The position numbers were made by a program, and so were the translations under genes. A stretch of DNA of 64,000 nucleotides from Undaria pinnatifida (Eukaryota > Sar > Phaeophyceae > Laminariales > Alariaceae), in NCBI GenBank assembly GCA_012845835.1, contig JABAKD010000030.1, forward strand, positions 11,804,080 to 11,868,079. Reading direction: 5' to 3'. The notes beneath the pieces are model-generated. The model did no database searches and was not told where the DNA came from. It was given only the letters and a program-made list of their open reading frames with translations. Positions 6,001 to 56,439 of the stretch are shown here, piece by piece. The first letter of the stretch is position 1; each line of letters starts with the position of its first letter.

Positions 6001-9000
6001 ATGGTGATGTGGCCATGCTATGCCAAGCGCAAGGAATACCAATGCGGAACATAAGCAAAGCCAGCACGCCAAACTGTCGGGAAAGGAAGCAAAACAATAA
6101 CAAGGAAGAACAAAGAAAATTGAGTCAAGTAACACGGCAAGAACAAAACATAAACCAAGCGGATCAGACAGCCAGCAACAAAACAGACGACACCAACCAA
6201 GCAGCATCGGGGGCAGCAACTACAGCAGTACTAGTAGTATACTGGATTCCGAATGCACTTACTGCTGTTATAGGAGTACTGCAGTAGGAACAGCATTGCC
6301 GCGTGGTCCATCACCTGCGTACTGTTTCTGACGACCGCGGTGTCGTATCCAAAACACAAAAATGAGCCTTAAAAAGAAAAGCAAGCAAAACCATGGCAAC
6401 CAAATCAGATGACACCACCCGGGCGGCGTCGGGACTGGAAAGCTGGAAAGCACCCAAACTGGGTTCCGAATGCAACTGTGCACTGTGAGTCGGCACGCTG
6501 TAAGTCACCCACTAGTTATTTAGTCGGACTAATAGTTACCTACAGTAGTCGTTTCCCGGAGGTACCGACTATCCGACTTACTGCTGTGTCGCCATACTTG
6601 TTAGAAGGCGGTTTAATGCGGGACGCACCTTTTCTTTGTGGGGCCGGGGCCCCCTCGGCCGGGGGGAACTAATTTGGCTCGCTTCGCTCGCCCGACGTAT
6701 TTCGGCAAGTCGGCTGGCCACCAGCTGGCTTCGCCAGCCGACTCGCTGACTAAAGCCAGTTGGTTGGCGAACGGCATCCACCGACTAGTAAGTAGTCGTG
6801 AAACTGTTCCGACTCACAGCTCTAGATGCTTGGCCATGCAATGCCAAACATATGATATAGTACTGGGTGCTTTTCTTTAGGTCGTGATGTGTGATGTGTG
6901 ATGTGTGATGTGGAGGCATGAAGGTCCCACTTGGAGACGGTGGCCGCAATTAGAGCGCAATGAAGTGAGATGATGTTTTGACAACCATTTTCATCGGCCC
7001 CGGACCCCTATCAAAATCGTGCTCTATGCACTGGGTATGCACTGTGTACTATTCGCAGTACGAAACAGCCCGTTGCACCCGAGGTATACGTAGCTCGTAT
7101 CATACGGTACCTGGCACGTTGCCCTCGTACGAGGTGTTTTTCAAATAATTAAAAAACGTCAGCTGTGAGTATGTACAACTGATTGAACGTATTTGCATTT
7201 TGGGCGTTTTCCCTGAAACGTTATACCGGGGTGTTACGAGCCCATTGCGGTGCAGGGAAATCGTTCGCAAGGAGCACCACATACCGCCTGCGCTCATTGC
7301 TCAAAATCCTCTATGTCGGGAAAGGGTGCACCGTCTTTTATTATCAATAGCTTCTCCGGTTAGTTTTCACGGTTTTATGCTGTACAGAGAGTCGGCCGAT
7401 ACGGCCATCATCAGAGCCATCAGTAGAGCCATCAGTAGAGCCATAAGACCCGAGCAAGGTGAACCCCGTCAACAAATTTAGATCTATGCAAGACAACAGC
7501 ATACGTACGTCCTACGGAGCAACAACCAATAACCAACAGAGCACTGGTATGGGCCATGGGTTTTACAACACCTAACGGGGTTGAACACCTCAGTATAACG
7601 CTCAGTAGAACACTCAGTAGAAGGCGGGGCAAAGGCAATCGGCGCGCGGCCTTTGGCGAAAATGCCACACGGTTTGCGTGGACGGTTGGACCATCCTCCC
7701 TCTTCTCTTTAGAGGGCCCTCCTTTCTTAATACAGGGAGACCCTACACCCTATACCCTATACTCTATGCCCTATACATGGACTCATATGTCTGGTACGCT
7801 CGTAGTAGTCTAGCAGCATTTCGCTCTCCTCGAACATATCGTGTAATCGCGCAATCATACAGCGAACGCATGCATACTGTACGTCGTTGGCTTGTCAGCG
7901 TGTTCTGACTGCCTGACTTGTTTCGTGGGCTCGTGCACATTCGTAGCTCAGGGTTAGGGTTTAACCCTAACCCTAACGACGTTGTGTGTGTGTGGGGGGG
8001 GGGGCGAGTGAGAAGCCATAGGCCCCGACATGCTCTATTGGTTGTATGCTGTTCCTCCGTGGGACGTATGGCGTGTGCTGTTGTCTTGCTTAGCTTGTTT
8101 AGCTTGTTTAGTGGTGAAGCTAACAGGGTTGGCGTTGCCCGGATATGATGGGCGTATGGGCCGGTCTTCTGAACGCCATGAAACGGTGAACCCCGGGCCA
8201 CAAATCGTTGAAAAAGCAGCCGGACAGGATAGGAGCCGGTGTACCCTGGCGCTTGTGGCAATATCCCGGTACAGTGTTGTTGTTTTGACCAATGAGCGCA
8301 CCCCCGATACTTGTTGAGGTCAACGACGTACTCTGTATCGGTAAATGCCGCCAGAAACCACCGGTATATTCGTTTTTTGGCTACTATAATGCACTTTTTT
8401 CTTTGCCAGGTACGAGGTATAACTTGAATGTTGTACCGTGCAACACGCATGATATCACGCAAGATAACACCCAAGAGGTGTACCCTTTATTAACCGTTAT
8501 TGAGCCCTTATTCATGGTATGAATTTCCGAGCCGATTTTGTGATACCTGGTATTAATATTAACATTCATTAGGGGACCATACGCATGGAAGAGTGGTGAC
8601 TTTGGAAGGATCTTGTCGAGAATTTCCATACGCGCATCGCCATTTAGTAGCTATTGAATATGAAACTATTCAGTCATTTAGTTACTTAGTTGGGGTTTAC
8701 ACCCTCCCCGTTGTTGAGCAAATCAGGTTCGAAAAGTCGCCGGAGGGTACCTTCTTTCTTAGCTATAGCGTAGTATACTATCCAACAAGTCGGTGTTTTG
8801 TCCCAGACGCCGATTGAGTTTGTACTCCGGTCGCCAGAGTGTCTGGGTTCCGTGCCTGACAGCAAGCATGGGTAACACATAACCGAAACTAACGCGGGAG
8901 ATAACGTCAATGTATCTCCCCTATCCCGTATAACTCGATCGACCACGGCAAACAGCTGTCTGAAATGGACGGGGCGATTTCTGTCCCCCATCCTCTATGA

Positions 9001-11952: not shown

Positions 11953-14200
11953 TTCGCCGAGCGTTCTGATTTGCTTGGCGCAAAGGGTATGGTGGATATT
12001 TCATGGTTGTATTTAGAAGTATGTGGTAGTGTTGTGGGGGTTGAGGTTTCCCGTGTGCAGGGGATTTCGAGTGAATTGCCGGAACAATGCGTTTGCGGAG
12101 GCGGCGACTTGTGGGTATTTATTCGATTTCCGTGCGAGCACAATTATGCTTTTTTCATAATAATTGATGATTTCTAGCATATAGAAGGTGACGTGCGGTG
12201 GTCGCGCGCAGGTCGTGCGAGGATTCCTCGATGTGGGCGTTGTTCTGCCCAGGTAGCGTTTCTCTCGAACGCTCAGCCCAAAAACGCCGGCGACGCGCTT
12301 CCGTCTCCTTGACCCTTTCCTCACCGGCGGCAGCTGTTCGCCGGGGATGCGGCTCTAGGCAAATATATGCATAACCGGTTGCATTTCCGCTTGCTGCGCT
12401 GACGACTGTTCCCTAGGTTTTACCTATATCGTAGGGTCTCTGTCGCGACATTTGCAAATGTGGCCGTCAGACCCAGGCTAGGGAACAGCGCGGCAACGAA
12501 TATCGTTGGCGCTGCATCAAAGTTAACATCTGGTACTCGGAAAGCTGGCGGTGGTACAGGCTGGTTCACGCTAAACGTCCAAAACCATTTCCGCGTCCAA
12601 ACCCCATGCCGTTTTTGGGGGTTAGACCCTGAACACTTGAAAATCTATTAATAGCACGTATGATATCTATGCACTCCTACCAAAGCATGACCGAAGGGGG
12701 TGTTGTGTTTATTCGACAGATTTCGTTATTTTCGTTTAAAGGGGGGAATGTTAAGGCCTCCTTGGGCCAACTGTTATAAACGACTGACTTTTAAATCCGA
12801 AAATGGATACTTCAGCACCTTCGCAGGCGTGTTTGACCTGGACAACAGAAGAATCGGGTCCGCTGTTCTCAAATTCCGACTGGCCTTTTTGCGAGACGCA
12901 TCTACGACGTTTGTTTGCCGTTTCTCCAGGAATGGAGTTTGAATCTTAGTGTAAACACAATCAGAAAAAAGCGGGTTTCGGATATCGTATATACACTCTT
13001 TCATGCGAAAATCAGGTTCGGACGCCACGAAAGCACGTCCTCGGTGTTACTCACTTTCTTAAGCTCCTAAGTGCCTGGTACCTGGTACCTGGGAGGCGAG
13101 AAGAAACTTGGTATAATTCCCACGGTCTTGATAGTCATCTGATCAGAGGGCACGTGCCCCTTCCGTCTCATGATCATCCCGAATGAAACACCATCCTAAC
13201 AGTAAAAAACGGGCCAATTGCCCATTTTCGAGGTAATTACCTGCCACTCCAAGGCCGTACCGTAACACTAGCCCACCCTGATGAGCCGCATATGCAGAAA
13301 TATGGGATATTCAGGGAAACCTCGGTTCTACTAACCACCAGGTGAAAGATAAATCGAAGATGCGGCTCCTTAAAACCCAGTCAAAATCCACTCCCACACC
13401 TCTGAACATATACTCTGCAGCCGAGAACGCGAAGATCTGCAACTAGTTGAAGGAAGCAATTAGGCGCTATGACAAGGGAAACAAGCCACCCCCCCCGTGC
13501 GGGCCGCCGGCATGGCGGGGGGGCGAGATGAGAAGACGACCAACACACGAAGCTGAACGTGACACTAGCTACAGCCCCGCGAGGGAGAGAAGTGTCCAGC
13601 TGAAAATGTACAACAAAGGCAACACAACACAATAACAAACAGTGCTATGCCACGTTATGAGCACCAGGCGTTTAATTGCACGTACGTGCAACGTTTTGAG
13701 AGTTGCACATAAACTCAGTACAGCCCCTGCCGACCTCGAGAGCAGACCGAGAGCCCCCCAAATGGTTGGGTTAGGGTTAGGGTTGGGGTGAGGTCTGGGG
13801 TCAGGTTGGTCTGGGCAGCGTGACCGTCGTTTTGTGCAGACCTGGACATAAGGAGCCGCCATACATAAATCGCTTTTGAATTTACGTGCAAATCTGAAAA
13901 ACCTTGCACATACGTGCAATTTCACGGGAGCCCCGTTATGAGTAGACAGAGTACCCTGGCCGCCCCCCGGCTCGGGGCTGAGGAGGGCGTCGGCAGGGCG
14001 AAAATTGAACGAACACGAAATAGTCCTGTACCTCAACTAGCGATCTGATTACCCAGACCTGGCCCGACAATGAGCGGGGGGGTCGGCAGGATTATAACAA
14101 CACATGTAGGAACCGCCCCAATCGCCGAAGTTCCATTTTAAGTAATGTAAGTTTGGGTGGGTTGAGGTAACATGGCTCCAGGCTGGCGGTCAGAAAAGAG
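11953..14200. other. Downstream of the CSPP1-like gene, no recognised gene
   Basis: The 3' untranslated and intergenic DNA contains only short open frames without motifs. It holds one TTAGGG tract (13766-13786) and TTGCACGTACGTGCAA-type palindromes (13674-13690 and 13904-13921). A cluster CCTGGTACCTGGTACCTGG lies near 13074. Confidence 0.6.
13766..13786 (+). repeat. Interstitial telomeric tract (TTAGGG)
   Basis: About three GGGTTA units (GGGTTAGGGTTAGGGTTGGG) degrade rightwards into a GGGGTGAGG-type G-rich stretch. Confidence 0.75.
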
Positions 14201-14220
14201 AGAAGTTCGAGTGGGACCAC

Positions 14221-14328
14221 CGGCGGGAGCAGGAAGCCTCATCCAATCCAATACTTAAATGAAATGATCGGTAACAGAGTCACCGAGTACCACAGGAAAA
14301 AATATTGGTATGCGTTTGAGTCTTCTTG
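14221..14328 (+). pseudogene. Short coding-like fragment, GSRKPHPIQYLNEMIGNRV family, copy 1
   Basis: A frame reads GGSRKPHPIQYLNEMIGNRV, continues TEYHRKKYWYAFESS and then stops. The same peptide (GSRKPHPIQYLNEMIGNRV, then KEYRRN) is encoded on the - strand at about 25200-25290. Only this frame stays similar, so it is probably a relic of a protein-coding mobile element or gene family. I do not recognise the family. Confidence 0.4.
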
Positions 14329-14329
14329 A

Positions 14330-17040
14330 GGTTGATGGCTTGCCTGCGGAGGAGGTCGCTGATGCTAATACGATACGACCCGGGTGCATGATATAATGAT
14401 ACCACCCGTGTCACATGGTATATCTGACGTTGTTTGGTGAGTGATATTGTGTTGCTGTCCAGAACCATGAGGAAGGGGTCGTGATATCATGTCATGGTTC
14501 TACTCACAGACACATAAACAATAATACCTGGTAGAGCTGTAGACCTACGTGTAGACTAGACTAGACTAGTTTTATGCCCATTTTGTGGTAATTTGGGTCA
14601 AACGCCAGGACATTGCACCAGACATTGCACCAGGCATTGCACCAGAGTGATGCTCTTCGTTTAAGGCAGACCGTGATTGCTACCAGGTACCTACGAGGCA
14701 TGAACTCTTATCTGTTACCTGGTACGTATTAATAGCATACCTGGTACTAAATGTCTAGTCTCATAGGATAACAGATAGTGTACGGCGCGTCGATGTACTG
14801 TGTTGTTTCTTCTTATTTTGTTATACGATGTGGGAATGCGGTGTTGTGTGATATCTGGCACGAGCTAACCGTTTGCCGCTGTAACAGCAGGCATGATATG
14901 ATATAGCAGCAGCAATATTCTCTCCGGTATATACTGCTGCATCGTATCGCATCAGAACACTGGAGCACGCGCGTTGCATGATCCTAATTGATATTTGCGT
15001 GATGACCAAATTGAGAGCAGGTCTACTTGAGATGTTTTTTTGCGTGAAGACCGACCTGACCGGTAACACTGTTATCATTGCAGTAGAGATATGATAACGC
15101 TCTGCTACTAAATGTGACCTTTGGATTGGTTCGAAATTCACGCGATAACAGCAGAGGAAGAACAGCGTGCCACGTATGGTATCTGATGTGCATCGTGAAG
15201 TCTTACATCTTTTTGAGCCTTTTTACGTGGTTTCCTGCGTTTCCGTTATTTACGACATCTTTGAAATTGCGCATAGGGATAGGATATTGCTGTACTTGAG
15301 CAACCTTATGCCGGGTGCCTGGTGCAAGTGTTCGTCAAATACCAGGTATACCAGACACATGCCATGCTTTGATTTTCAAAGCTAACCAGTCATTAAGGTC
15401 GATTCCGTGGACGAAATGCAACGCTTTTGTTTAATCGTTTCTCGCTGGCAGCAACTGGTGGTAGAATTTGAGTTTGCTGCCTTGACAGCACGCATAGACA
15501 TATCATGTTGCAGATTTGACTGGGGTTGGATTTTGATTGTTGGTTGTCGGGGTGTTTGCCGGAGCTATCATGGAAACGCGATGTCTTTCTTCTTAATCTG
15601 CCATGCGATGAGTGAATGAAGCTAGTTGGACGCATCGTTTTCGCCGAGCAGAATGGGGGAGGAGTGACTGAATACTCGGCGTACGTTACGACCAATTAAT
15701 TGTGCCGAGCACGGGGGGGGGGGGGGGGGGGGGTGATTGTACCCGAACGCGGGCAAATTCCATCGTAAAATATATAGAGTTTTGTATTTGGCGTTGTGCA
15801 TGAGGTATGCGTTACAGATACGCGCGAGCTAGTTGGATGCTGTTGGTCGAGCAGGGGGAGGCTGGCTGAATACTCGGCGCGCATAGCAACCAATGGATTC
15901 GTGATATGCATAGCAACCCACGAATTCGTGATGCGGTCGAAACCATGCAGAATGCCTGATGCAGAAACTTGACGTTTGGATATGTGTATATTTGGCTTAT
16001 GGTGTAGTAGTACGTGTAATAAACGGTCGCAGTAACATCAGGGTGAATGCAGGGCTGCAAGGAAAAATGTGACCCGCTCTAAAGGTAGGCGCATCCCGCT
16101 TGGTAACTGGTCTGTGATTTGACGCGAGCTCGAGGGTAACTAGCCTTTCTACAGGCAGGTTGCCTGATACGGCGTGCGAGGCAAAGACTACCGAATGTCA
16201 ACTGTGGTGTTGTGTCATGAAAGTATTGAAATATAATCGATAGCCCGGAGCATCTCAGCCACGAAATGTTTGAAAGAAACAAAAGTATGGGATGATGAAC
16301 GCAACGAAATATAGACAGCAGCAGCAGTACCAGCACCAGCAGCTGGAGATGGAGGATGCCGATGCAGCACGGGCTCTTGCAGTCGCTTCGGATGATATTT
16401 TATTTTCGATCCGCCTTGGGTGCTCCTTGCATGTTCTCCACCTTGCGGCCAATGCGGGAATGGAGAACTTTTCCCTCAATGTCGATCTTCAGACGCTCCT
16501 CGTTTTCGGTTGATATTTGTTTTGCTCGTTGGCCAACTTGGCGAATACCACCCGTACCGACGTTGGCAAGCACGCATGACCAGGCTCCACCTCTGCGGAA
16601 AATCTTCTCGACCGAATAACCACAAGAAAAATGATCGCCATCGTTGGGGCGAGGGTACCACCAGAATCAGGGCCAGGTAAACAATCACACCGGTAACACA
16701 TTCACGTCTGACCACCATGGTGGTATCCCGCCCTCGGCCGCCTCATTCTGCCCCCGCTCCTGCTCCAGGAATGCGCCGTGGGAGTCGTCCACTACCAGGG
16801 CGGGAAAACAAATGCGCGATGGCCTGGTACATTCCGTACTGGCAAATGACAGCTCGACAGCGGTACGGCACACCCGGCCCGTCTGCCGACGGCGCTGTTG
16901 GGGACATCTCAGTTTATTTCGTAAGATGCTCGTTTATTTTTTGCTAGCCTGCCCAATTTCGCGATTGCCTCTGTTAAGAGCCCACGGACTCCTACGCCGT
17001 CTGTCGAAGAGTCTCACGGCGTGGTACCGGCGGCGGGAAC
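14330..17040. other. No recognised gene; small repeats
   Basis: Several TACCTGGTA motifs (14527, 14680, 14716, 14738, 15341) occur here. There is a G homopolymer of about 24 bases near 15712. A diverged direct duplication pairs 15610-15690 with 15830-15895 (CTAGTTGGA, CGAGCAG, GACTGAATACTCGGCG). Open frames near 15167-15385 and 16292-16720 have no family signature. Confidence 0.5.
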
Positions 17041-17809
17041 CAGTGCTTTGAGAGGGGTTCCCCTCAGCCAGTTATTATTTCGACTACGGGAACGCGCTTC
17101 CAGTGCCCCTCCCCTCGACCATGGTTCGAGCTCGGCGAAGGGAACCCGCGCTTCCAGCGCTGTTCCCCTCAGCCGCGGCATAACTTCATAAATTCAGCAA
17201 TACGGGTACCCGCACCAAACGCCACCCCACTCAACCATGACACGGGAACATTTGCTTCGCGCGCTCCCCCCAGGCACGCGTCGCGCAGCAATAAGACTGC
17301 GGCGACGGCGAGTCGCTCTCCCAAGGGAACGCGTTCATCCCCTCCTCGCCCTGACGATATGGTGGTGGTCGGTTTGAGGTGTGGGGAGGCCGCTTCTAAA
17401 CAATTTTTTCCTGACCACGAGGTGGCGGTCGGTTTAAGGCGTGGAAGACCAACGCTAAAACATTGAAACATTTAGCGAGGCTAAATCCGGTGCAAGACCA
17501 GCTGCCCAGTCTCCTTTCTCCGAAAGTCCTAACGGAAAAGAGCGTTCTTGGGTGGAAGTTTTGTCGCCACATACCCCAGTCCCGATTCTGAAGATGCCTA
17601 CAGGGTCTACTGGCCCTGCTTCATCTTCAAGCACACTAACCCACGTGCTTCGGGCTATGTCGGTACCAGTGGAACAAGGAAATAGAGCCGACACTGCGCG
17701 GCGGGCCAGTGGTGGCGCCACGGCCTCCAGCCCGATTAGCTGGATACTATTCCTATAAACTTATGGAATAATCGCATCTCTCGTCAAGCAGAAGCAGCTC
17801 ATGCCCCCC

Positions 17810-18250
17810 TGTCCCTTCGGGCGCAGCTAGAGCAGCTTCTTGCGATTTTTCGCCAACAAGCGAAGAGACCACGAGGCGAGAAACCGTGGGTTTGGACTCG
17901 CATCGTGCTCCCGAGGCCTGGTGTTTCCGGAGGGGAACACTACAGACCCAAAGTTGCCAGGACTGGTGTTTCCAGACGGGGACATTCCAGGCCGAAATTC
18001 CCAACGCGGCTTCCGACAGATTGGCACCGTCGCTTTTTTACCCTCTTTCGGGCGCAGTTGATGCGGCTTCTAGAGATTTTTCGCTCAAGAGCAAAGTGGC
18101 CACGAGGCGGGAAACCCGGGAGTTCGGATTAGAATCGTACTCCCGAGGCATCGTGTTTCCGAAAGGGGACATCACAGACCCAAAGTGCCGAGGCTTGGTG
18201 TTCCCGGAAGGGGACATTGCAGGCCCAAATCCCCAACACGGCTTTTGACC
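17810..18250 (+). repeat. Tandem duplication of about 200 bp in the gag-side region of the Ty3/gypsy relic
   Basis: Two copies (17815-18045 and 18050-18248) share GGCGCAG, ATTTTTCGC, GGCCACGAGGCG-like and CCGAGGC blocks and encode related phrases (VFPEGN.TDPK, VFPEGDIAGPN). It could be a repeated domain of the structural protein or untranslated leader sequence. Confidence 0.5.
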
Positions 18251-18269
18251 CTTCTCTCGCATGCTCCAC

Positions 18270-18751
18270 AGACGAAGCGGTGTTGTTCTGGCAGCCCCCG
18301 TCCTATTTTTGCTGCGGTCTTCTTCGTCGTGTGTCGTGGACGACGTGCATATGCTTGCGCGGAGCAGAATACGATAGCTGAATAGGCCAGGCTTTTTAAA
18401 GATCATCATGCAGTGAAGCTCATCATATCGTCGCCTGACCCAAGCGCACATAAACGCATCGGTCGAGGCGTGCGCATCTTTGACTCCGCTGTTTGGGACA
18501 GAGAGAAGCAAAACGCCGTGTTATCTGGCACCTACGCCAAGTTCACACGGAATCCAGCCATGAAAAATCACTTGTTGAGCACTGGCAACAAGCATTTGGA
18601 TGAAGCTATCCCTCTGGATCCAGTGTGGGGCATCGTTCTCCGGGCGGGTGATCCCAGGACCAACGACCCATTCCAGTGGCGAGGGAATTTTTTTCTCGGT
18701 AAGGGACTTTCTGCCGTTCGCGAAGCATTTCGCAAAAGTGAGACCGGGTAG
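18270..18751 (+). pseudogene. NADAR-like domain inside the Ty3/gypsy relic (fossil)
   Basis: The clearest frame reads HKRIGRGVRIFDSAVWD, YAKFTRNPAMKNHLLSTGN and LDPVWGIVLRAGDP, ending near a LLG..LS.VREA-like stretch. This is the order of the NADAR fold (YbiA/RibX type): a GR.V...W block, KF.QN......L..TG, L.EA...D..WGIGL, and a final LG..L..VR. Family members hydrolyse N-glycosidic bonds in riboflavin intermediates or remove ADP-ribose from guanine in DNA. The domain lies directly upstream of the protease in the same orientation, and its N-terminal third is visible more weakly. It shares the element's broken state. Whether it was part of the polyprotein or a separate frame cannot be told. 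Confidence 0.6.
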
Positions 18752-20166
18752 GCATACCCGGCCTTCTCTAGACGGTTCCACACTCGCAACGGGAATACAA
18801 GAATCCACGAAATTTCGTCAGCGCCGCGGCCGGGACCAGCGCTCGAAAAGGTCCTTCTTCGGAGGTTTCGACCCGTTTCTCGGACGTGCCGGCCGACCAA
18901 AGCCGTGAAGTTTGTTTGGAGATATCTTCTAGCGTCGGCCCTGGCCTTGCGCTATCAGAATACGGCCCCTGCCTCGTCGGGGGTACTGTGACGCTAGACG
19001 ACCTTTCGTTCATTACTAAAATCGTAATACATAGCGGAGGGGACGCCATTGCGCCCTACAAATGCGTGGCGCTCCTCGATACTGGTCCCCCCAAAACCTT
19101 CAGCTGACGCGATGTTTTGGATCGCATGCTTTTCGTGGGTGCCGCCTCGGCGGCGTGCGAGTGAACCTCCAGCCCTCGCTCATGGGGTGGGTGGTTTTGG
19201 CGAATCTTCTCCTTTGCGGACCTCGACCAGCATCCGCCTGAGCGTCCAGCTTTTCCGTAACATTGAGCCGACGAGTTTCCTCGCAGTGTGGGCCTGCGTA
19301 GATCCTCCATCGGTCATGCAGCATACGATGTTGCTGGGCCGCGAGAGTTGGATGGGTTTTAACACGCGTTCGTATCGCGCTTTGCCGCCCCGACGGCGAG
19401 ATAAAGGGGTTTTCGGCCAGCTGACGTCATCCCACCATGCCACGACAGGTGCATCGACCTATGACATACACCCCACAGCTAAAGGCGGTGGTTTCCACCT
19501 CTTCTACGATGGCGCTGGGGGTCTCACCATGTCTGACCAGCCTCAACTTCTTGAAAACTTGGCGCGTAGTAATGGCTCTCCGGCGCTAATAGGACAGTCA
19601 GTACCTTGTTGACGTGCTGCCACAGTCGGACCTCGTTTCGGTGCAGGAACACTTCGTTGCCTCAGGGCGTCAGGTCCTCCCGTTAACAGGTGTTGCAAAT
19701 CTCGAGCCGGGCGACCTTGTCGGGGTCACCCACGCCCCACTTCTGCGCGTTCCGCTAAAGTATTTGCAGCACTGCCTACCAAGCCGCCGATCCCCATCTT
19801 GAGCATACTGCATGTTTCGGCTGTAACACGGTCACCCGCTCCAGGTGAAGCAGCGACGGTTGTGACGTCGTCCTCACCGGCGATACTGAAACGATTGAAC
19901 CCAAACCAGCGTTCTTCGTTCCTGCGCGTCTGAGTCCGTCTGCCGCCACACCTGCGGGAGGTCGCATTTGATCTACATGACTCGAGATGGACCCCTGCGC
20001 CATCGAGCAAATGGGTGATGTAGTCTGTGGGTTCCCCGACGTGCTTTACACCTCAACGACGGAGCTTGGCTCTTGTGCCTTGATGCTTTTCGAGATCTTG
20101 GTGGGGGACAGTGCTCCGGTCACATCCTGACCCCACCGCATAAAAACCCTACACTGCCCACAAAAA

Positions 20167-20607
20167 ATGGGCGCAACCCTCAACCAGTACCTCGCGGCTG
20201 GATCGATTCAGCACTCAACATCTCCATATTCGAGCCCGCTGTTCGTCATACCGAAAAAGTCCGGGCGCGTGATAATCACGGTGAACTACAAGGAGTTTTA
20301 TCAAATCAGCAATCTCAGCCAGCTGTCCATTACCCGCGTGGACCGGGTCCTAGACTCCTTGGGCTCAGGACGGGTGTTTTCCACGTTCAAGCTGGTGTCC
20401 TCGTTACACCGTTTTCAAGGCGCACACGGTTTCTCTTACGCGTTCTGCACACCCACGGGCCTCTACAAGTACCTCGTCATGCCTCAGGGCAGCAGCGTTT
20501 CGCCTGGGTGGTTCGTTAAGGTGATCCATGAGGTGATCAAGGACTTAAAAAAACAGGTGGCTGCTTACCTCGACGATGTCATTGTGCTCGATTCCGATAC
20601 CCGATAA
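20167..20607 (+). pseudogene. Ty3/gypsy reverse transcriptase core (fossil)
   Basis: The fragment shows SPLFVIPKKSGRV, a SLHRFQGA-type block, KYLVMPQGSSVSPGWF and AAYLDDVIVL, the fingers-palm order of Ty3/gypsy reverse transcriptase. The following stretch (20685-21010) has FLGHSISPAGLDPN, typical of the thumb/connection. It belongs to the element at 17040-24600. Confidence 0.8.
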
Positions 20608-21504
20608 CGCATATCCAGACGATTCACTCCCTCTTTGAACGCCTGCGAAAGCACTACATCAAGCTGTCCCCCTCCAAGGATCGATTGGGTGCCACAGATG
20701 CGAACTTCCTGGGTCACTCCATTTCCCCGGCGGGTCTAGACCCGAACGCAGAAAAGGTTTCCGGATTGGTCAGTATGCAAATGCCCACGGATGTGAAGCA
20801 GGTTCGTGCACTGATGGCTGGTATCAAATATTACCGCAATTTTTTCCCAACTTGTCCAAAGAGGTTCCGTCCGATTAACTCGCTCGGAGCTTGCAAACGC
20901 CGATTCTGGTTTTCCTCAATTGGAACGCTGTCGCTGATGGCCCACGTCCGTTCCACGTGTAATGCGACGCGTGCATCGAGGTGTTTGGCGCAGCCCTCAA
21001 ACAGGAGCAGGCGAACGGCTCCTTGAAGTACATCACGTGTGATAGCCGTGCTACCCTCGACTCGGAAATTCATTTTACTCCTTTTCATTTGAAGGCCGGC
21101 AGCATTGTTTGGTCTCTCAAACGGTTCCAAGGCTAACTTTGGGGGGGGGGTAAACCACGATGTTCTCCGACCACAAGGCACTGGAGAACATTGGCAAAGT
21201 GGGGATCCACAATGCACGAGTCCAGCGGTAGGGTCCACCTCTTTTTTTTCTGAGGTACCTCAATTTGGGATCTTAGGATTTAAGATATATCCCCAAACAC
21301 TGATTTTCAAGGAAAAAAAAAACTTCTGCCGGATGAAAAATCCCATGGAGCAGGTATACAACGAGAATAAGGCAAAAAAAACTTCTATTTCCGACGATAA
21401 TCGGTTAAGGAGCCCCGCCATTCAGAAACAGTCAATTTCACATCAAAGCTTGAATAATACTTCTATCGTAGCACGCGTCTTTTTTCGTACTACTGCTACT
21501 CCTA

Positions 21505-21579
21505 TTGCTACTACTACAACTACTACAACTACTACAACTACTACTACTACTACTTCTACTACTACTACTACTACTAATA

Positions 21580-21621
<42 letters not shown>

Positions 21622-21628
21622 ATACTAC
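21505..21628 (+). repeat. (ACT)n microsatellite
   Basis: Near-perfect ACT/ACA triplets over about 120 bases, inside the segment inserted in the Ty3/gypsy relic. Its Thr- and Leu-rich open frames are artefacts. Confidence 0.9.
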
Positions 21629-22599
21629 TCATTTGGGTGGGTTCGTGCCTCGCACTGAAAAGGATGCCTTGGGTGCCCCCCCTCTCACCTCGCTACCAGT
21701 TTTCACGATTTTCGCACACACGGGCCACGCATAAGGATTGACATTCTTTTTTCTTCCCTGGGGGGATTCCTCGCTTGTGTTTCTGCCTCCGTCGCCACCG
21801 CCGAAGGCTGTACCGGCCGCGAGCCGATTCTCCTGCCACTGACACTTTTCCTCTTCTGTATTGGCCGTACCCACCGAGGGCGGCACGGGTCCCGCGGAAG
21901 CCCTGGCTACAGCGACGACCGTCGCCCAGCCGAGGCTTCTACCCAGGAGTTCTACTCAGGAGACGGACTCCGCCGCGACCACCCGTCTGACCGTGTCAGC
22001 GTCTACCTCGCTGGCACTCCAGCGGCTCCGTTGGCGACGCCGCCTTTGGACAGCATCCCAACTCGGACTCGCCGACGAACAGCGACCGCAACTGGCAATG
22101 CACCCCTCGCTGTACATTATGATTTTGGGCCCAGCAGGGCCCCTCGACCATCTGCCGGCGTCTAACACCCCGCCCGCGAGTCCCACGGTCGCGGCCGATC
22201 CCGTCCACCGCCGCGACCCCTGCTTCTACGAGTTCTCTTGTCCCCGCGGTACCGATTCAGTTCGACCGTTACCGTGTAGAGCCTATTGGTACTCCTCTAT
22301 TGCGACTTCCGCCCACTCCTGGCGACATGCCAATTGCACCTACAAAGCTAGAAGCCCTTGGCGACGTGGGTATACCACAGTTCGCTGATCCCGTCCCGCG
22401 ATTTTCGCATGCCGACTAGGAGCGAGAACAGCAGGCTGAGCCGACGTGCTGCCGCTGTGCGCTACATCACTATCGGCCGACTTTTTTGTCGTGTTACCCC
22501 TCGCACAAGCGTCCCTCCCTTTCGGACACCCAGGAGCTGGTAAATAAAGGTAGTCTACACACAACCGACGACGATATCGTATTACTCGTCCGTAATCCG

Positions 22600-23660
22600 A
22601 CGCCGCCGCCGATACCTGACGCGCCTAGCTCGGTGGGGCGAGCAGCTTGCTTGTTGAACGACAAGCCTATTCGCATACAGGTGCCACTGCTCATGCGCCT
22701 TTGGATGATGCAAGCTTGTCATTTGACGGCCTCTTGTCACCTTGGCACAATGCGCACATTGTGCATGCTGGAGATTTTTACTGGTGGATCGGCATGAACG
22801 TATGCACCCGGTGGTGGCTTCGACACTTTTTAAAGGGCCAAGGGAAGAAAAACCCACGACTGACTTTCCAATCGCCGATCATCTCCATGTATCTGCCGCA
22901 AGGTCCCGGCATCGCCATCAGCGTCGACTATTTCGAACCTCTCCGGTCACGCCGCGAGGCAACAGTTACATATTGTTTGCCACCGACCGTTTCAGCCGTC
23001 GGGTCGATATGTTCGCCGTTACCACCGTAGCGTTCATCACTGAGGACAAGGCCAACATCCTGGAAATAAATATATTTCCCTCTGGTGATGCCTACGCACT
23101 ATCCTCTCGGACAGCGGCCTCCAGTTCTGCGCCAAGCCTTCACAAGCTGTTTATCATTTTTTTGGCGTCCATAAACTTGCCACAAGCTCCTAAAATCCAA
23201 ACGACAACAGAGGCGTTGAACGGGTGAACCACGCCATGGCCCAAATTCTGGCTATGGTCGTGCTATGGTCGTCAACGAACGCCAAAACGACTGGGATTTT
23301 CAGCCCCCTCACGTCGAGTTCGCTTACAACAATTGGGTCAGCGTGGCGACAGGTTTGGCCCCCAATGAGGCCCACATGGACAGACTTCCACGTCTCCCTC
23401 TGGCAGTTTTCGAACTCTCTGGAGTTGCGGTACACCAGAGTTTAGCCAGCGACCATCTGGCTTATTACGATCTGGCTACAGACCGACAACAGCGTGCGCA
23501 CGATATTGTTCGTAAACACCATGTACCCTCACCGTTTCCCGCGTACACCGCCGAAACTCTGCCCTCGCCGACGCGCTGCGCCCGGTCCCCAAGTTTGCCG
23601 TGGGTGGTTGGGCATGGGTGTACAACTCAGCTTTACGGACACAAAGGTAGTCGAGGCTAA
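22600..23660 (+). pseudogene. Ty3/gypsy integrase region (fossil)
   Basis: Recognisable parts are a zinc-binding-like stretch, GPGIAISVDYF at the start of the catalytic core, a region before SFGFTRGV-like sequence, HVEFAYNN and ATGLAPNEAHM, and a C-terminal DLATDRQQRAHDIV. This order is typical of Ty3/gypsy integrases. It is broken, so only fragments are visible. Confidence 0.7.
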
Positions 23661-24599
23661 CTTGCGCTTAATTGGACAGGCCCTTCCAAACTCCTAGCAG
23701 TAGGTCCCTGCTCATCCGCCGACACCCCGGACGGCTCGCTGCTTGGCCATAACCTCCTCGATTTGGACTTCCCTCCCGACCTACCTGGTGGTGCTAGTCG
23801 GCGAGTGGCGATCAAACTCTGCAAGCCCTGTGCCAATCCCCACGACAGCAGCGACATGCCCAAGTACCTACCGGTGGGGCTGACGTAGTACGTGCTTAAC
23901 AACTTTACCATACTGCAAATGGAACACAGGACAAGCATGCCCAATGAGGTGTCTGACGTATCACGCAGCTTGTAAAGTTGAGTTTCAACCACCCATCGAT
24001 CGTACTCACAGCTGACGTTTTTCAATTATTTTTCTCCAAAAGCAAAAATCCCGCCGTACCACGTCACTCAAGACGACGTTTCGGCTCCTCTCCAAAGACT
24101 TGAAGTGGATAAGATCACCGGTCACCAGTCGGCCCGCAAGCGAGGTAGTGTCATCGCGGCAAATACAAGACGCATTGGATGGGTTTCTCTACACCATCCT
24201 GGGAGCGGGAAAGGGACCTCCAACACTCTCGCACCCACATTTTGCGGTATTGAGCCGGCACCCCAGACCTACACCCCCAAACCAACCGCCTTTACCGCCG
24301 AATGCGCATCGGTGCGGCACAGCGTGAGCTTGCTCGGAACAAAGGCGAGCGTTTTTTGGCGCCCAGCTACGCTTGCGTCACGCGCACGGGGTGGATTCGT
24401 CGCTTCCGCGACACAGTACTCCCTAAGGGAGCCCGCTTTTGGTACAAGGGCGACGATGAGTTGTGGTGGCTTGGTAATCTCGGAGCAACCCCCCGGGGAC
24501 GGCCCTCTTCCGTCCCCGGGGTGAAAAAAAAGCCTGATAGCTGTACAGACAAATCAAGACGATCCCACTTGCATCGTCGGCTCCCGTGCAGCAGCTAGA

Positions 24600-25820
24600 G
24601 AGAGTAGGAAGTGCTTAGGGAAAACAGGCCATCCCGCCCGCCATCGTTGTGCGCGAGACACGCCGACAACGACATCAATGATATTTTGTAGTGTTTATTA
24701 TACCGGGGTAACTAGTCTCTGCGACGAGTTGCCGCGTTGACTACCATCGAATCAACGCGGAGGTAGTAGCCCTGGGTGAGAGTCTCCGGCTGATGGCAGC
24801 AGAGACTCCTAATTGATTCCAAATTATATACGAGTTACAGCGTCGGCGAAATGTTACAGCAGGAATATCGGCGCGAGTACGACTGAGGACGGCGTATTTC
24901 TGGTCTGATTTTTGGACGACCCGGGCCGATGAAACTTCCGCTCCCTCCGGCGCGATACACGACTTGGACGGGGGTCGTAGGAGGTTTTTGGTGTCTTCAG
25001 GTCCACGTCGCCAGCGCCTTTCCTCGGGAGATCCAACACAACGGAGATTAACCTCGACGTGCGGTCGTGGTTAGGCGACTTTCAAGCCGCCGCCGCCTCG
25101 ATGAATTTCGTGTTTTTCGGGGTTGTGAGCTTAGGAATTTTTCTCCTTTGAGCGTTTGTGGTGTTTTCTGCGTTTGGCCTGGGTTTGGGGCGGTTCCTGC
25201 GGTATTCTTTAACTCTGTTACCGATCATTTCATTCAAGTATTGGATTGGATGAGGCTTCCTGCTCCCGCAGAAGGTCCTCACCTGTGGATACACCACCCG
25301 CGCTGAGGGTGCCTTCGGTCGAAGTGCCCTCAGCGCAGCAGTATTTCCTAAGGGAAATGAACACAACTGTTAAAATAATACCCAGTGTAGGGTGGGTGGG
25401 ATGGTCTTAACTTTTTCCGCTCCTCGCTGGTATCTCGTCGAGGATTTCGGGGACTATAACACGAGTGAGCTCGCTTCATAGACAGTCGTAGTAATTGGTA
25501 GCAAACATATGGTTCCAACTTTTGTGCCAACCGTGGGAACCTGAAGTTGGTTGACGATATTACTCATATAATATGAAACCGAAGTATCCGTAGGCCAGTA
25601 TCTGAAACCGTAGTGCCACAAACAGGGTTTAAACCACTGACAATTGGAAGACGGATATGTACGGATCCCTGTGCAAACAGTACCAAACCTCGGCCTTTGT
25701 TGATTACTATTAATATAAGTCGGCCTCAAACAATATACAGACTAAACTCTATACCTGGTACGTACGTGTTTCTAATACCTGGAATCAGACATATGTTGTT
25801 AATCTACCATGTCTGCTACA
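24600..25820. other. Right flank of the Ty3/gypsy relic; possible LTR remnant
   Basis: A purine-rich stretch before TGATAG near 24534 could mark the internal/LTR boundary, but no matching left LTR was found. A palindrome GCGCTGAGGGTGCC...GGTGCCCTCAGCGC-like hairpin lies at 25300-25340. The - strand fragment at 25082-25366 is listed separately. Confidence 0.4.
25082..25366 (-). pseudogene. Coding-like fragment, GSRKPHPIQYLNEMIGNRV family, copy 2
   Basis: On the - strand the frame contains FCGSRKPHPIQYLNEMIGN, then RVKEYRRNRPKPRPN. It matches the + strand fragment at 14221-14328 over about 30 residues. Function unknown. Confidence 0.4.
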
Positions 25821-27130
25821 TTGTTATTGTTCTCACATTAGCTCGCATGTCAAGTCCGTGGTCAAAGGACAGGCTCCAGTCACTCTGGATTGGAGGAATA
25901 CCCCAGGGAGAACACACAAACAAACCAAAGGTGGTAAACGCATATATCACAGCTGACGCAATTAATGTCTCCACCAGAAACATATAAAAGTGAAATCGGA
26001 AGTCAGCCTACGATGTGCCAGGGCCGTACTGGCGCATACGTCTCACTGCTCGCGCCTGAAGAACCGACTATACCGCTTGCCACCCAGAAAAGACTACCAC
26101 TCATACAATTACACGTAGTACCTATCACTACGCATACGCACGTCGGACTCAAGTCACTAGGGGAAAAAAAAAGAAAAAAGAAAAGAAGAGAAAAGAAAAG
26201 AAAGCGAAAAAAGCAAAGGAAAGAAAACAAAAGAGAAGAAAATACAAGACAAGAAGAGGAAGCAAGAAAAGATGAGAACGCCATACTAGCAGACCCTAGG
26301 AACTGACTAAAGACGGCATTGGGCTCATAGAGGGTACCAAGTGCATCAATGGCACTTGGGGGAGTGCGCAACAAGGCGAAGAAGTCAGGGCGGCCTTACG
26401 CTAACTTGTGACGGCCATTGGAAGGCCCACAAACTTCAAGATGATGATAGCCAGACCCAGACTTCAGTACCCAGGGCAGGACGCCCCCCCTTTCCCCCCT
26501 CGCCCCTGCCCCCCTCCACCCCTCCCCCCTCCCCCCTCCACCCCTCCTCCCCCCCCCCCTCCCCCCGGCCGTTTGGAGATGCCGACGGAGGATGACGCTG
26601 CCGCAGCCTTTGCGTGTCGCTCTGCAGCTCTGCATCTCTCCGCCTCATGCCAATTCCGCATGAACAACTCTGCTCCCTCTTCTACCCGTCGAAAATATCC
26701 ACCGGCTTTCTGAGCATCCTTTCGTTACCCTTCGAACTTCATTCCACAGACCGACACATCCTTTTTCAGGTGTACCATCCAATCCTTTTTTTGCCCGCAT
26801 GAATAGCCCTTACCCCCGACAAGCTCCCCAAACATCACCCTCTATGGCAGACGCTCCTCCCCCATACGTGATACGAATCCCTCAAATAAGCATCCTCCGT
26901 TTGCGCACTATTGCCCCTATGCTCTCGGAAGATGTGTTGGCAAGCGCGTCGGCGTACGATAGGGTGTGGTCATCGCGCTTCCGTTTCCGCCATCCGAGGC
27001 ATCGGAGGAGTATGGAGTGGTGAGCCCGTTGTAGCCTGTCATAGTCAGGCTTGTTCGGGCTCCACGTCATGCAACCGTAGAGTAGTGTCTCGATCACCTC
27101 GGCTTTCAGCAACCGCACCTTCAACCATAA
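25821..27130 (-). mobile_element. 5'-truncated LINE (APE-type non-LTR retrotransposon), copy 1
   Basis: The 3' terminus (- strand) is an (AAC)n-like tail at 25821-25831. Next come a pyrimidine-rich 3' UTR (the purine run at 26160-26290 on +), a G-rich stretch (C-rich on + at 26480-26570) and the C-terminal part of the reverse transcriptase protein, ending upstream around 27130 (KVRLLKAEVIETLLYGCMTW, DYDRLQRAHHSILLRCLGW). It is collinear with 36974-38300. Similarity stops abruptly near 27130, a typical 5' truncation. Confidence 0.8.
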
Positions 27131-27696
27131 GCAGCCCTGGAGCGCAAGACAACCTCTACCAAGTCTCTGGTATCGTACGACAGTCCACGTCAGAACCAAT
27201 TAATCTACCATACTCTTGATATTCTCCTGGCCAAACTTTCGCCAACGCACGACGCAATCATCACTGGAGTTCCTCGCAGCAGCATCTTACCGTACACAAC
27301 TTCAACGGCAACATATATGCATCTAAGCAGTAGGGATGCGCGGCACCGACATCAGCGGGGGAAAAAATTGTCAAACCGTCATCTAGGCCGACGGTAACCC
27401 TCTTACTGTTGACGTCATTATCCCCCCCTAACTTCGAGATAAATATCCCCCAAAACGTGGGTGTAGTTCTACAGATATCCAGGCGTTAACGGGAGGGGGA
27501 TGGTGAAACGCTCTTGACAGTCACGATGAGACAATCGGTAGCGTGACGCAGTCCCAAATTCGACCTACTGCTAGCGAAGATTGCATGCGAAATCCGCCAA
27601 ACAAACGAGTTTCACTTAGGGATAATAATCTCTTGCCACCCCGCACACTTAGGTCGCGACGAAAAGTCATCAAGGAACTAGCCGCGATTCAGTTAT

Positions 27697-30600
27697 TTAG
27701 GAGGCCTCGTCCTGATCGTAAAAGTCGACGTGGGCTCCCGTAGCGAAGGTGCCGCTTAATGCAAGCCTGACGCATTTTTCGGCTGAAATGCGGGGATCTA
27801 CTAACCTTCCGGTTCGTACATCATTCTCCATTTGCTCGGCTGATCTTGCCGCGCGGAGCATATCCGTTAACATAGGCCCAGGAGCGTAGTTCAGCACCTT
27901 CAGCCCTCCGAGAGAAGCCTGCTCTATCGCGAGCGCCCTGTACACCGTCAAGGGTGCGGGAAATGCGATTAGAAAAATGCGAAATATGGAGGCACCTCCC
28001 GGTATATACTCGTATCTCAGTAAAGGGGACACGGTCAGGAAAAATGGTGCGGGTGCGTCAAGAACGATGACACCGACGTGAAAGCACGCGAAGCAAGGCC
28101 CTCGGCTGCTCGTCTGTTTACTTAGGGAATAGCCTTTTGCAGCAGTGAAGCAGAAAACCTAGCCTAATGAACCGTGTACCACGTTACTTTTGTCGCGGTT
28201 TAAAAAGCGAGACAGAAGAACGAAAGAACGACCACTACAAAGCGCGGCGGGACTCATACAACGTTGTGCAAATGTAAGCAGCTTGCAAAGTTGAGTTTCA
28301 ATCGGTCGTACTCACAGCTGACGTTTTTCAATTTTTTGTAAAATATAATCAAAATCTTGGACACCATGAACACGTTTAGATATCCATGTCTCCTCAGCGC
28401 CAACAGGGAAGGGCAGGGGAGGTCAGCCCCGTCGTTGGGTAGAGCACAACTTCGGCTACACAGTATCAGAAGAGGACACGAACGTGTTGGAATAAACAAA
28501 AGAGTAGCACGTGTGCATGTACAACATATTCCGTTGTCCGTAAGAAACACGGACATAATTACCTGTGGAACATGTCCCGAGCAGCCTTGCCTGCGCTGTA
28601 CCCACTCCAAGATTCATACGGCTGCAAGGCGGCCAGGCTGGAGATGTTAACCACGACATTGCTCGAACCAGAGGTGCTGTCGCCCGTCACTGCCTCGCTG
28701 CCATGGTCGTTATCCGCTCTTAACGATGTCGCCAACGGCTCGTTGTTGGGCGAAGCCCGACTTTCTGCCGTTCTATGCGCTCCGAAGAATGAGGCGAAGC
28801 GAGACGAGAGCCAAAAAGCGGACGTGATGTTGAAATCCATCTCTGATTTGAGCTTGGCCAACGAGGGCAGCTCGTTCACGAAGCTCAAATGGCCAAGAGA
28901 ACCGGCGTTGTTGACCAGCACTGCTCGTGCATAGCGATCCAGGTCTGTACGGTTCGCCACGGTAAAGAATAGGGGGCGAGAGACGAGACTATAGCAGCTT
29001 ACGCGAAACAGAGAGGGCGCATGCATGTAGAAGATATTACGCTGTAACACATTCTCTACATGTGTTAAATATCATTGGTTCAGATTGCACCGCATTTGGA
29101 TTAGATTGTGCCGTATTTTTGTGTGACGGATATTTTCAGATACGTACGAATAACGAATAAAGTTCTTGGCTGGACATCGACCTCAGCTCTTCGTCCGGGT
29201 ACCCTGACACTGCGACGTGCATTGCCTACTTTTCTCCTGATTGGGACGTCTAGCTCGACCAAGCGGCGCTATTGCATTGACAGAAGACAAGTGTTACCGC
29301 AGGTATATCATCGAGATTAATTTATTGTAAAAGTGAAGTAAATTGAAAACACCAAAACATCGTGCTTTAACGAGCATTTATGGTTCTCATTTTATTATTG
29401 CCCCTGCGGTATCACCTACACACACGCAGACATCTGATATAATGTAGCACGAAGATCAGTCCTTGCTGGCTGCTACACACAGATTCCACACAGATCCACA
29501 TTATACCGACAGCATGTCGTCTGGCAATTTGTCGGTCTTCTACAGCGCAGGTGCGGCAACATCGCTCTACCTGGTACAGCTATTAATAGATACGTGCGTA
29601 CGGTGCTTAACGACACACAAAAAAGTGGCACGGTGAAATTCAAGACATGCACAACAAAATGGCCAACCAAGAGACCAAACTTCGAGCAAGAGGACCGACC
29701 ATCCGTTCAGGCTCAAAATATCTTGATTTTAGAGAACACTAGAGATCGCCACAACATCGGAAAATGCTGGCCATACCATACCATACGCTACAAAGTACGA
29801 TTCGCTTAAAGTGTCCAAACTTCGAGAAACGGTGTGGAGTCGTGTGTTATATTTTAAAAATTGTTAGCGCGCCCTCTTTCGACCATATTTCAACCGGAAA
29901 AGCAAATATTTTGAATGTTTCTGTTACTTTACAGGTAAAGGTCTATGATTTGGATGTCAATAGAGAAAGCAAACACCACAAGCACCAGCTGTCTTGTTTA
30001 GCCACGGCACAAAACAAACCGCACCCTAATGGGAGCAATACAGCCCAACAACGTGACCACCCTGAATAATAGAGTAATTATATAAAATGGGGGCCACCTG
30101 CACTATCTGCATTTTTGGTGGAAGCTCGTGAAAGCTTCCATGGAAGCTTCCATGGAAGCTTCCACGCTTCCATGCCGTGGACGCTTCCATGAAAGCTTCC
30201 ACGGAAAATTCCACGGTAGCAACTTCCACGGAAGCTTCCACGGAAGCAACTTGCACGGAAGCTTCCACGAAAGCTTCCACGGAAGCAACTTCCACGGAAG
30301 CTCCCACGGAAGCAAGTTCCACGGAAGCTTCCATGAAAGCTTCCACGGAAGCTTCCACGGTAGCAACTTCCACGGAAGCTTCCACGGAAGCAACTTCCAC
30401 GGAAGCATCCATGAAAGCTTCCACGGAAGCTTCCACAGAAGCTTCCACGGAAGCAATTATCACGGAAACAACTTCCACGGAAGCTTCCATGAAAGCTTTC
30501 ACGGAAGCGACCTAACCCTAACCCTAACCCTAACCCTAACCCTAAGCTTCCATGGAAGTAACTTCCATGCATTACTTCCGCGAAAGCTTCCATCGAAGTA

Positions 30601-33110: not shown

Positions 33111-33217
33111 CTGGCACACGGCGGACGTAGGGAAAATTGTCGCGTGCGGCTAAATATTCGTGTACAAGATTTCAGCAACTTTATCGCGTGGGGAATTTGA
33201 AAGAAGGCATTCGTTAT

Positions 33218-48819: not shown

Positions 48820-49060
48820 CTGTTGTTGTTTGTTGTCTCACACTAACTCTCGTCAAAAATCTAGTCTATGGTCACACAAGGGTGCTGGAGCCCTAGGAAG
48901 ATCCGAAGAATCAGATGAGATCAAAATCCGTCCGGAAAATACTACGCTTTCCCCGCCTAAAAACGAACGATGCGAAGAAGGCGCACAAGTGAAAAGGTGC
49001 AATGTGCAAGCTGAACTCACATGGCCGCGGGTATCCACTCAACTACAGCATAGAGTTCCC
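48820..49060 (-). mobile_element. SINE-like repeat sharing the LINE 3' end, copy 1
   Basis: The + strand begins TTGTTGTTTGTTGTCTCACA, then CTCGTCAAAAATCTAG and TATGGTCACACAAGGGTGCT, continuing to CGCACAAGTGAAAAGG. The (AAC)n-tailed terminus resembles that of the LINE, while the body differs. The same body occurs at 49950-50055 plus 57334-57440. Near its other end the - strand has A-box-like TAGTTGAGTGG and B-box-like GAGTTCAGC, but they are unusually close, so a tRNA origin is only possible. Confidence 0.5.
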
Positions 49061-49184
49061 CCGTTCCCACAACTAACCAACTCGCGGCTACAAACTACAG
49101 CGGTTGGGCTGCCTGCACCGTGCGAACCGCACGGTAATCGTGAGCACAGACGAACGCGCCTGCTGTCTGGAGTGCTGTCAGAGT

Positions 49185-49400
49185 GACGACCCGCGGGCAT
49201 GCAGTGAAACAAGAGCAATCGAACCAAAAACCACAAGATACAAAATATCAATGATCGCCCCGCCTTCCCGAGTTATTTGACAAGTTGCAGCGCAGCTACT
49301 ACGCCCGTGCCTGGAAATTGAAAATTGAAGGGGTCGTTCCCCATGAAGGGTGTGCACCTCTTGTACAAACTCTACAAAAATCAGCGACGTACGTAACATG
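49185..49400. repeat. Dispersed repeat of about 205 bp, copy 2
   Basis: Partner of 41325-41531 in the same orientation; both end at GACGTA...GTAACATG. Diverged by small indels. Confidence 0.65.
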
Positions 49401-49949
49401 TTGTACTACTGCCTCGTAAATAAACCCTTGAAAAAAAACCATTCGCTGCTCTCGTGATGATGGTGTGCGTGCGGGTCGTGGGTCTCCGTGTACCATCCTC
49501 CTGCTGTGATTCTCCATGGCCGACTCATCGCCTTAGCTCACTCGGCCCGCTCCTTCGCACTTGCTCTCGTTGACACTCAATTCCAATCGGTTCCCCTTCT
49601 CCCCCGTCCCAAAAAAACAAAACGCTCCGCGCAGCTTGCGGTCTCAAAAACAAAACTTTTCGTTTAGGGAGAGTTCAATCCGTCTCTTCCCCGCCCGTCG
49701 ACGGCCAGTCGCCCTCCTCCGTCGTCGTCGAATCCAGCCTCCTGCCGGCGCAGTTCCCTCCACGCAAACCGAGACTGCGCCCCGTGGTGGCGCCTGCCTC
49801 CGCGCACGAGCATCCCGATTAAGCATGGCTGCTCCGCCGCTGCTGCCTAACAAGACGCGCGAATCGTAGGTGACCATGCCTAACGCACCACGTACGACCC
49901 AACTCTCCCGCCACGCCTAAGCCTCGCGGCCACACGCAGCAGCAAGAAG
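49400..49949. other. No recognised gene
   Basis: A frame at 49561-49869 (102 codons, Arg/Pro-rich) has no motif. Nothing else is seen. Confidence 0.4.
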
Positions 49950-50055
49950 GTTTGTTGTTGTTGTTGTTCTCACATTAACTCTTGTCAAAAATCTAGAGTC
50001 CGTGGTCACACAAAGGTGCTGGAGCCGTAGGAAGATCCGAAAAAACAAAATGAAG
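49950..50055 (-). mobile_element. SINE-like repeat copy 2, left part (interrupted by the retroelement)
   Basis: (GTT)n, TCTCACATTAACTCTTGTC, AAAAATCTAGAG, GTGGTCACACAAAGGTGCTG and GGAAGATCCGAAAAAAC match copy 1 at 48826-48910. The remaining part resumes at 57334 after the 7.3-kb retroelement. Confidence 0.65.
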
Positions 50056-50342
50056 ATGTAGCTTTACGCAGGAATGCAGAGTTTGTGGAGGCGTGGTTGG
50101 GATTCGAATAACGGGAGTAGGGCAACGGCCAAACTAGAATACAAATTCGAATTAGGCCGACGTTGTTGTGTCTGCCCCGGACTCGCCCAAGTGGCAGACG
50201 AGATCGGGGCTCCCACACGAGTGGCGGAGCAGGAATACAGAGAGAGGGAGAGTTGACCCTCCAGTGGCTGCGAGGCTGGGGACGGAGTATATTGGTTACA
50301 GCAGCGCAGCAGATCAGGACAGCGCGTCAACTTGATTTGATC
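50056..50342 (+). repeat. Split direct repeat A1
   Basis: Starts ATGTAGCTTTACGCAGG and ends near CAACTTGATTTGATC. It matches A2 (56710-56998) with only a few substitutions and a 2-base length difference in a GA run. Confidence 0.85.
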
Positions 50343-50444
50343 GACTTGGACTTCGTCAACTTCACCCTCGTTTGTCCCTCCCTCGTTTGAGCCTTCGTTT
50401 GGAAGCCTTCGTTCGGGAGCTGTCCTCACAACCCCGCGCTTGCG

Positions 50445-51987: not shown

Positions 51988-52229
51988 CAATGCGGGCTCT
52001 GCCGCCAGGCAGGGCCGACCACGGGGAGGGAGGGAGCAGGCGCGGCCGACCAGGGCTTCGCCGACCTCACGAGGTCCGTTGGACTTCACAGGGCTCCTAC
52101 TCCGGGATCGGTTTCGCCGGACCTGTTTCACGGTGAGTCAGTTCCCCGCAGGATCCGCAGCAGTTGACAGTCGGTCGCAGGCACCGAGCAGCAGAGAGGG
52201 CGGTCGACGCAGAATAACCGGCCGACACA

Positions 52230-52440
52230 CACAGGCACAGATAGATGGGTAGACAGTATACAGCCCTCATATACCAGACAGCAGCACAGACAGACATGCA
52301 GCCACATGGATAGGCATACAGACAGACATACTTAGAGACAGAGGGACCACTCGTCCGACGAAAATTACAGACAGACGGAAGACAGGTCGACAGACACAGA
52401 CAGACAGACAGAAACGAAACGAAACGAAACGGACCAACGG
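52230..52440. repeat. CAGA-type simple repeats inside the retroelement
   Basis: ACAGACAGACA, ACACACAGGCACAGATAG and GAAACGAAACGAAACG runs lie between the gag-like and reverse transcriptase regions, probably non-coding. Confidence 0.6.
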
Positions 52441-56413: not shown

Positions 56414-56439
56414 GGGTCGTCGTTTGCAGGCTGCCCATA

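Follow-up and report, generated by a model that had tools for sequence, protein, structure and literature searches.

The closest described relatives of the element considered here are Gypsy retrotransposons of Ectocarpus, a lineage of which is reported to bear a highly conserved NADAR domain at the N-terminus of Pol (PMC12477816, Genome Biology 2025). According to the same report, blastp matches to this domain outside Ectocarpus are almost exclusively bacterial, processing of RNA intermediates is proposed as its role, and Gypsy-12_Ec32 is named as one element with a putative chromodomain at its C-terminus. Some proteins of open reading frame (ORF) 1 of Tx1 long interspersed nuclear elements (LINEs) from Crassostrea gigas also appear to contain NADARs, described there as divergent matches. 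This was the only paper on NADARs in retroelements recognised among the matches listed in our literature search, the others being judged by their titles and the first lines of their abstracts. Here, we analysed a 64,000-nucleotide stretch of Undaria pinnatifida DNA (the window; contig JABAKD010000030.1, G+C content of 52.4%), in which a NADAR domain at 18271-18751 is followed by parts of a Ty3/gypsy Pol. This NADAR and the Pol parts very probably belong to one decayed Ty3/gypsy retrotransposon, of the same NADAR-bearing kind as those published from Ectocarpus (PMC12477816). The original prediction had held that no standard Ty3/gypsy domain of this kind was known, which the published lineage contradicts. 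The association is thus already known in kind, and what this copy contributes is no more than a decayed example of it.

A host gene with the same domain has also been described. Esi0017_0056 is a stress-induced Ectocarpus gene encoding 391 residues, with a YbiA-type NADAR at residues 132-291 and two predicted introns; it has two close relatives in Ectocarpus, and the next ones are prokaryotic (PMC7922944). In the main text of that paper, the string "transpos" has 0 occurrences, and the paper does not seem to take up how this gene relates to the Gypsy NADARs. As for the enzymes themselves, NADARs are reported to remove ADP-ribose from guanine in DNA (PMC11125620, PMC11543638). A literature search combining retrotransposons, ADP-ribosylation and brown algae returned no paper on the topic, as judged by title, and a search for YbiA and riboflavin found none.

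The Pfam profile PF08719 matches positions 18386-18748 (+ strand) with an E-value of 4.6e-27 and a score of 95.7 bits, the curated cut-off being 35.1 bits. This places the piece in the NADAR superfamily (YbiA family) and rules out a chance match; the original prediction had proposed a NADAR domain here. The alignment of the open piece spans positions 49-163 of the 163 in the profile. The NCBIfam model TIGR02464 (riboflavin biosynthesis intermediates N-glycosidase) gives the open piece 78.5 bits against a cut-off of 73.7, PHROG 1017 matches the NADAR piece with an E-value of 7.8e-24, and NF053876, the NCBIfam anti-phage NADAR model, matches it weakly (18.4 bits; cut-off of 240). The only PDB sequence matching the piece at E <=0.01 is 8bau (phmmer E 1.4e-8), which is the P. 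nicotianae NADAR according to its PDB title. An AlphaFold2 (AF2) model of the open piece, for which the input alignment consisted of NADARs (30 of the 80 bacterial loci considered below), has a mean predicted local distance difference test (pLDDT) value of 80.8, with values <70 at residues 71-100, and a predicted template modelling (pTM) score of 0.64. The top two Foldseek matches of this model are the NADAR 8bau (E 2.9e-3) and YbiA 2b3w (E 0.52), and none was found at E <=0.001. Because the model was built on a NADAR alignment, the fold search adds weak independent support for the identity of the domain. An intron-sized gap is absent within 18271-18751 in translation coordinates.

When comparing the copy with other NADARs, clear signs of decay can be noted. 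The N-terminal pieces (Table 1) were obtained by three-frame translation and aligned one at a time with a set of 84 NADARs (80 bacterial and 4 from phages); the piece 18333-18350 was assigned by eye to a spot where the aligner did not put it. Directly before the open piece, an in-frame TAG (18383-18385) stands at a column that is lysine in 84 of the 84 NADARs. The glutamate seven residues before this column, present in 83 of the 84, is kept here. Judging by the E-x6-K spacing, the pair should equal E43/K50 of the P. nicotianae NADAR, that is, E88/K95 of the E. coli C7 NADAR; the assignment was made from the spacing, as the 84-NADAR alignment does not contain 8bau. Of this pair, the glutamate is retained, and the position of the lysine is a stop. 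K95 of the E. coli C7 NADAR is reported to be essential for ADP-ribosyl-guanine hydrolysis (PMC11543638).

The other active-site residues are largely in place. The residues R79, W89, E125, D130 and W133, as named in PMC11543638, recur unchanged in the open piece, and at the place of R93 it has lysine, which is the commonest residue there (42 of the 84 NADARs). These matches were read from the phmmer alignment with 8bau, in which the numbering of the chain differs by two and the spacing is consistent for all six residues. Glutamate at position 125, in the last strand, rather than aspartate or histidine, is the YbiA-family type (PMC11125620, PMC11543638). The column aligned with E125 is glutamate in all 84 NADARs, a count that is partly due to construction: the loci were gathered with a single pattern covering [VD]EA[SI]P-D--W, and this column lies inside it. 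Among the columns conserved in >=90% of the 84 NADARs, 30 of 35 are kept in the copy (25 of 28 outside the search pattern), whereas at the other columns the commonest residue is found in 30 of 82 cases. The window copy is dead, a pseudogene: its N-terminal third is found in other frames, and a stop occupies the position of a lysine shared by all 84 NADARs compared. From the retained residues, we infer that an ancestor had an intact enzyme of the YbiA type. The relic is derived from a NADAR and is no longer a working one.

Downstream of the NADAR, parts of Pol follow on the same strand. The reverse transcriptase (RT) piece matches the Pfam family RVT_1 at 20131-20604 (E 5e-9), and its best PDB sequences are 4ol8 (E 2e-18) and the Ty3 polyprotein (Gag-Pol) 7q5b (E 7.1e-18), with retroviral sequences far behind both. 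The entry 4ol8, listed as reverse transcriptase/RNase H, is presumably Ty3 as well. A Ty3-type RT followed by RNase H characterises the Ty3/gypsy elements (Metaviridae), and the common orientation of NADAR and Ty3/gypsy parts, as originally predicted, is borne out by both domains. The order of NADAR, protease motif and RT puts the NADAR on the N-terminal side of Pol, with 317 bases between its stop and the protease motif. The latter, ALLDTG, is presumably a retropepsin active site; the protease piece 18772-19104 has no Pfam match. The integrase-like motifs are located downstream of RNase H; the six pieces from this region have no relevant Pfam match, and two of them have no significant PDB match. 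The chromodomain-like stretch has no relevant match in either Pfam or PDB.

Table 1. Features of the NADAR-bearing Ty3/gypsy relic in the window.
Feature	Position	Strand	Details
NADAR N-terminal third, split over other frames	18271-18385	+	pieces 18271-18303, 18333-18350, 18350-18382
NADAR domain, C-terminal two thirds	18386-18751	+	open frame, 121 codons and stop
Protease-like ALLDTG motif	19069-19092	+	motif only
Ty3-type reverse transcriptase piece	20131-20607	+	YLDDVIV at 20566-20586
RNase H piece	20963-21133	+	RT_RNaseH_2 E 8.6e-9, RT_RNaseH E 1.4e-7
Integrase-like pieces in three frames	within 22735-23378	+	motif only
Chromodomain-like stretch after the integrase-like pieces	24164-24226	+	motif only

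The relic contains repeats of its own. A TAC microsatellite (21488-21629) lies between the RNase H piece and the integrase-like ones, and a short repeat occurs in the 3' part (23965-24031), with further sites at 28278-28337 (+) and 7137-7187 (-). These two sites were considered as further copies of the element and rejected: the pol pieces do not match there and the translations look unlike pol by eye. Eleven pieces compared with the 64-kb window gave only self-matches at E 0.01.

The outer parts of the element are less clear. The original prediction had placed the NADAR between a gag-side region and the protease; the NADAR is indeed in place on the + strand and the protease is present as a motif, but the gag-side region was not found. 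No gag was detected in nine upstream pieces (16299-18245) and one linker piece, a search of frames of about 88 codons or longer that a broken gag could escape; the best match among these ten was PF19979 (E 0.0068, below its cut-off). The stretch 18074-18382 also matches no gag family in Pfam. Long terminal repeats (LTRs) were sought as direct repeats between 12000-18270 and 23700-30100, and none exceeded the shuffle level: the best reached 24.7 bits, and the best of each of ten single-base shuffles reached 22.9-26.5 bits. The lack of recognisable LTRs is not surprising for an old relic. Immediately upstream of the NADAR, there is an imperfect direct duplication (17816-18012/18047-18244, 79%), and an 85-base inverted repeat (14214-14298/25194-25278, 89%) has one arm on either side of the relic.

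When comparing the window with the Gypsy-12_Ec32 lineage, the NADAR is found in both on the N-terminal side of Pol and on the same strand, and a chromodomain-like motif is present here too; unlike that lineage, the window copy is broken and has no recognised LTRs, and the two are likened by the published description (PMC12477816). The Tx1 LINEs of C. gigas are likewise retroelements with a YbiA-family NADAR, but they are non-LTR elements carrying it in ORF1. Esi0017_0056 has a YbiA-like NADAR as well, but is annotated as an intron-bearing gene with no transposon mentioned in the main text (PMC7922944). The P. nicotianae NADAR (8bau) and E. coli YbiA (2b3w) share the fold, and 8bau most of the active-site residues; unlike the window copy, they are stand-alone intact proteins.

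Relatives of the NADAR piece were found in 667 of 50,697 phage records, every one with <60% identity, and in the genome contig set (genome_contigs) there are at least 591 among at least 594 candidate stretches. The 80 genome loci kept among the matches listed are bacterial, judging by their titles, and 39-50% identical to the NADAR piece, and none of them is a recent donor. The tree pairs the piece with one phage sequence with a support of 0.67, the terminal branch having a length of 1.0 where the median is 0.15; we read this as no placement. In the viral contig set (viral_contigs), 16 candidate stretches for the NADAR piece and 5 candidates for the RT piece came up, none of which was confirmed as a relative, and the phage records contain no match to the RT piece. 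The domain probably came from a bacterium, either directly or via a host gene.

Several observations weigh against assigning the NADAR to the retrotransposon. The protease, integrase and chromodomain are putative, being motifs that no profile supports. The landmarks of the relic are spread over all three frames, and the frame of the NADAR differs from that of the protease motif and RT. Neither LTRs above the shuffle level nor gag were found to bound the element, and membership is judged from order and orientation. No assay of a Gypsy NADAR was found in the literature located. Finally, the intron-bearing Esi0017_0056 leaves a host-derived insertion possible (PMC7922944). A host NADAR gene, or its retrocopy, could have been inserted by chance beside an unrelated Ty3/gypsy relic, and the existence of that gene with its two close relatives, the missing LTRs and gag and the discordant frames would all agree with this. 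Yet such an insertion would have had to land 317 bases from the protease motif, in the very position and orientation published for the NADAR at the Pol N-terminus across an entire Gypsy lineage (PMC12477816), and we consider it very unlikely. Both the domain order here and the published Ectocarpus families speak for NADAR as a component of a Ty3/gypsy lineage.

Taking the stretch as a decayed NADAR-bearing Ty3/gypsy element, the function of the domain can be considered for its living relatives. There, the domain would travel with Pol in the particle and could hydrolyse ADP-ribose N-glycosidic bonds, e.g., those of ADP-ribosyl-guanine, on the RNA or cDNA of the element. We tentatively suggest ADP-ribosylated RNA or cDNA as its substrate, and the particle or its vicinity as the site of action. 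The original prediction had invoked protection of a retroelement from ADP-ribosylation; the window copy protects nothing now, because it is a pseudogene in which a stop codon has taken the place of the conserved lysine, and the idea can be carried over to living relatives by inference. Nearly as likely is that the element-borne domain acts not on ADP-ribosylated bases but on small molecules, such as soluble ADP-ribose derivatives or riboflavin intermediates, or in RNA processing; this would compete with the mechanism and not with the identity of the element. It agrees with the TIGR02464 score above its cut-off, with the role proposed for the Ectocarpus lineage (PMC12477816) and with the argument that low-molecular-weight ADP-ribose derivatives are the main targets of phage NADARs, although for NADARs of eukaryotic RNA viruses the targets are argued to be macromolecules (PMC9503650). 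Against it, every NADAR/YbiA protein tested is reported to have hydrolysed guanosine-ADP-ribose, even if not all were efficient antitoxins (PMC11125620). The domain might also lack catalysis and serve Pol passively, as a structural or nucleic-acid-binding part, as the stop at the lysine position and the changes at 5 of the 35 highly conserved columns could suggest. However, losses of this kind belong to a dead copy, most of the other named active-site residues are retained, and the NADAR of the published lineage is described as highly conserved (PMC12477816), so a passive role appears unlikely.

Elsewhere in the window, Rfam and tRNA searches gave no match. A piece of a dihydrouridine synthase gene is located at 59580-60098 (+; PF01207 E 3.9e-22). 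A short-chain dehydrogenase gene lies in pieces at 27700-33149 (-): the Pfam family adh_short matches 28562-29071 (E 1.3e-10) and, below the cut-off, 32748-33149 (E 5e-5), and the piece 27700-28158, without a Pfam match, was joined by eye. Tandem repeats at 30.1-31.3 kb occupy the gap between these pieces; they are dense palindromic repeats of the TTCCACGGAAGC type (30097-31299) and include a short run of telomere-like CCCTAA units (30510-30545). Paired repeat blocks occur within 48821-57418 around long + strand ORFs: 50053-50347/56707-57003 (96%), 56440-56709/57077-57333 (91%) and 48920-49005/57333-57418 (88%). By its arrangement and by eye, this region looks like a DIRS/Ngaro element; seven pieces of it searched against Pfam gave RVT_1 as the sole relevant match (53667-54101, E 0.06). 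There are also two copies of a 1.3 kb repeat with 85% identity (25821-27130/36974-38299) and an inverted repeat of about 366 bases (46298-46661/47511-47876, 91%) with 849 bases between the arms; this may be a transposon of the foldback or terminal-inverted-repeat type.

The retention of an ADP-ribose hydrolase in a retrotransposon lineage suggests a hazard to retroelements in the host, be it the ADP-ribosylation of nucleic acid or an ADP-ribose signal. Esi0017_0056 and the Gypsy NADAR might be of one origin, either a bacterial gene that came into the algal genome and was captured by a Gypsy element or an element-borne NADAR domesticated by the host, although we regard this as a rather doubtful possibility. 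If it is true, a conflict over ADP-ribose would take place in brown algae, with the same enzyme on the side of both the retroelement and the host.
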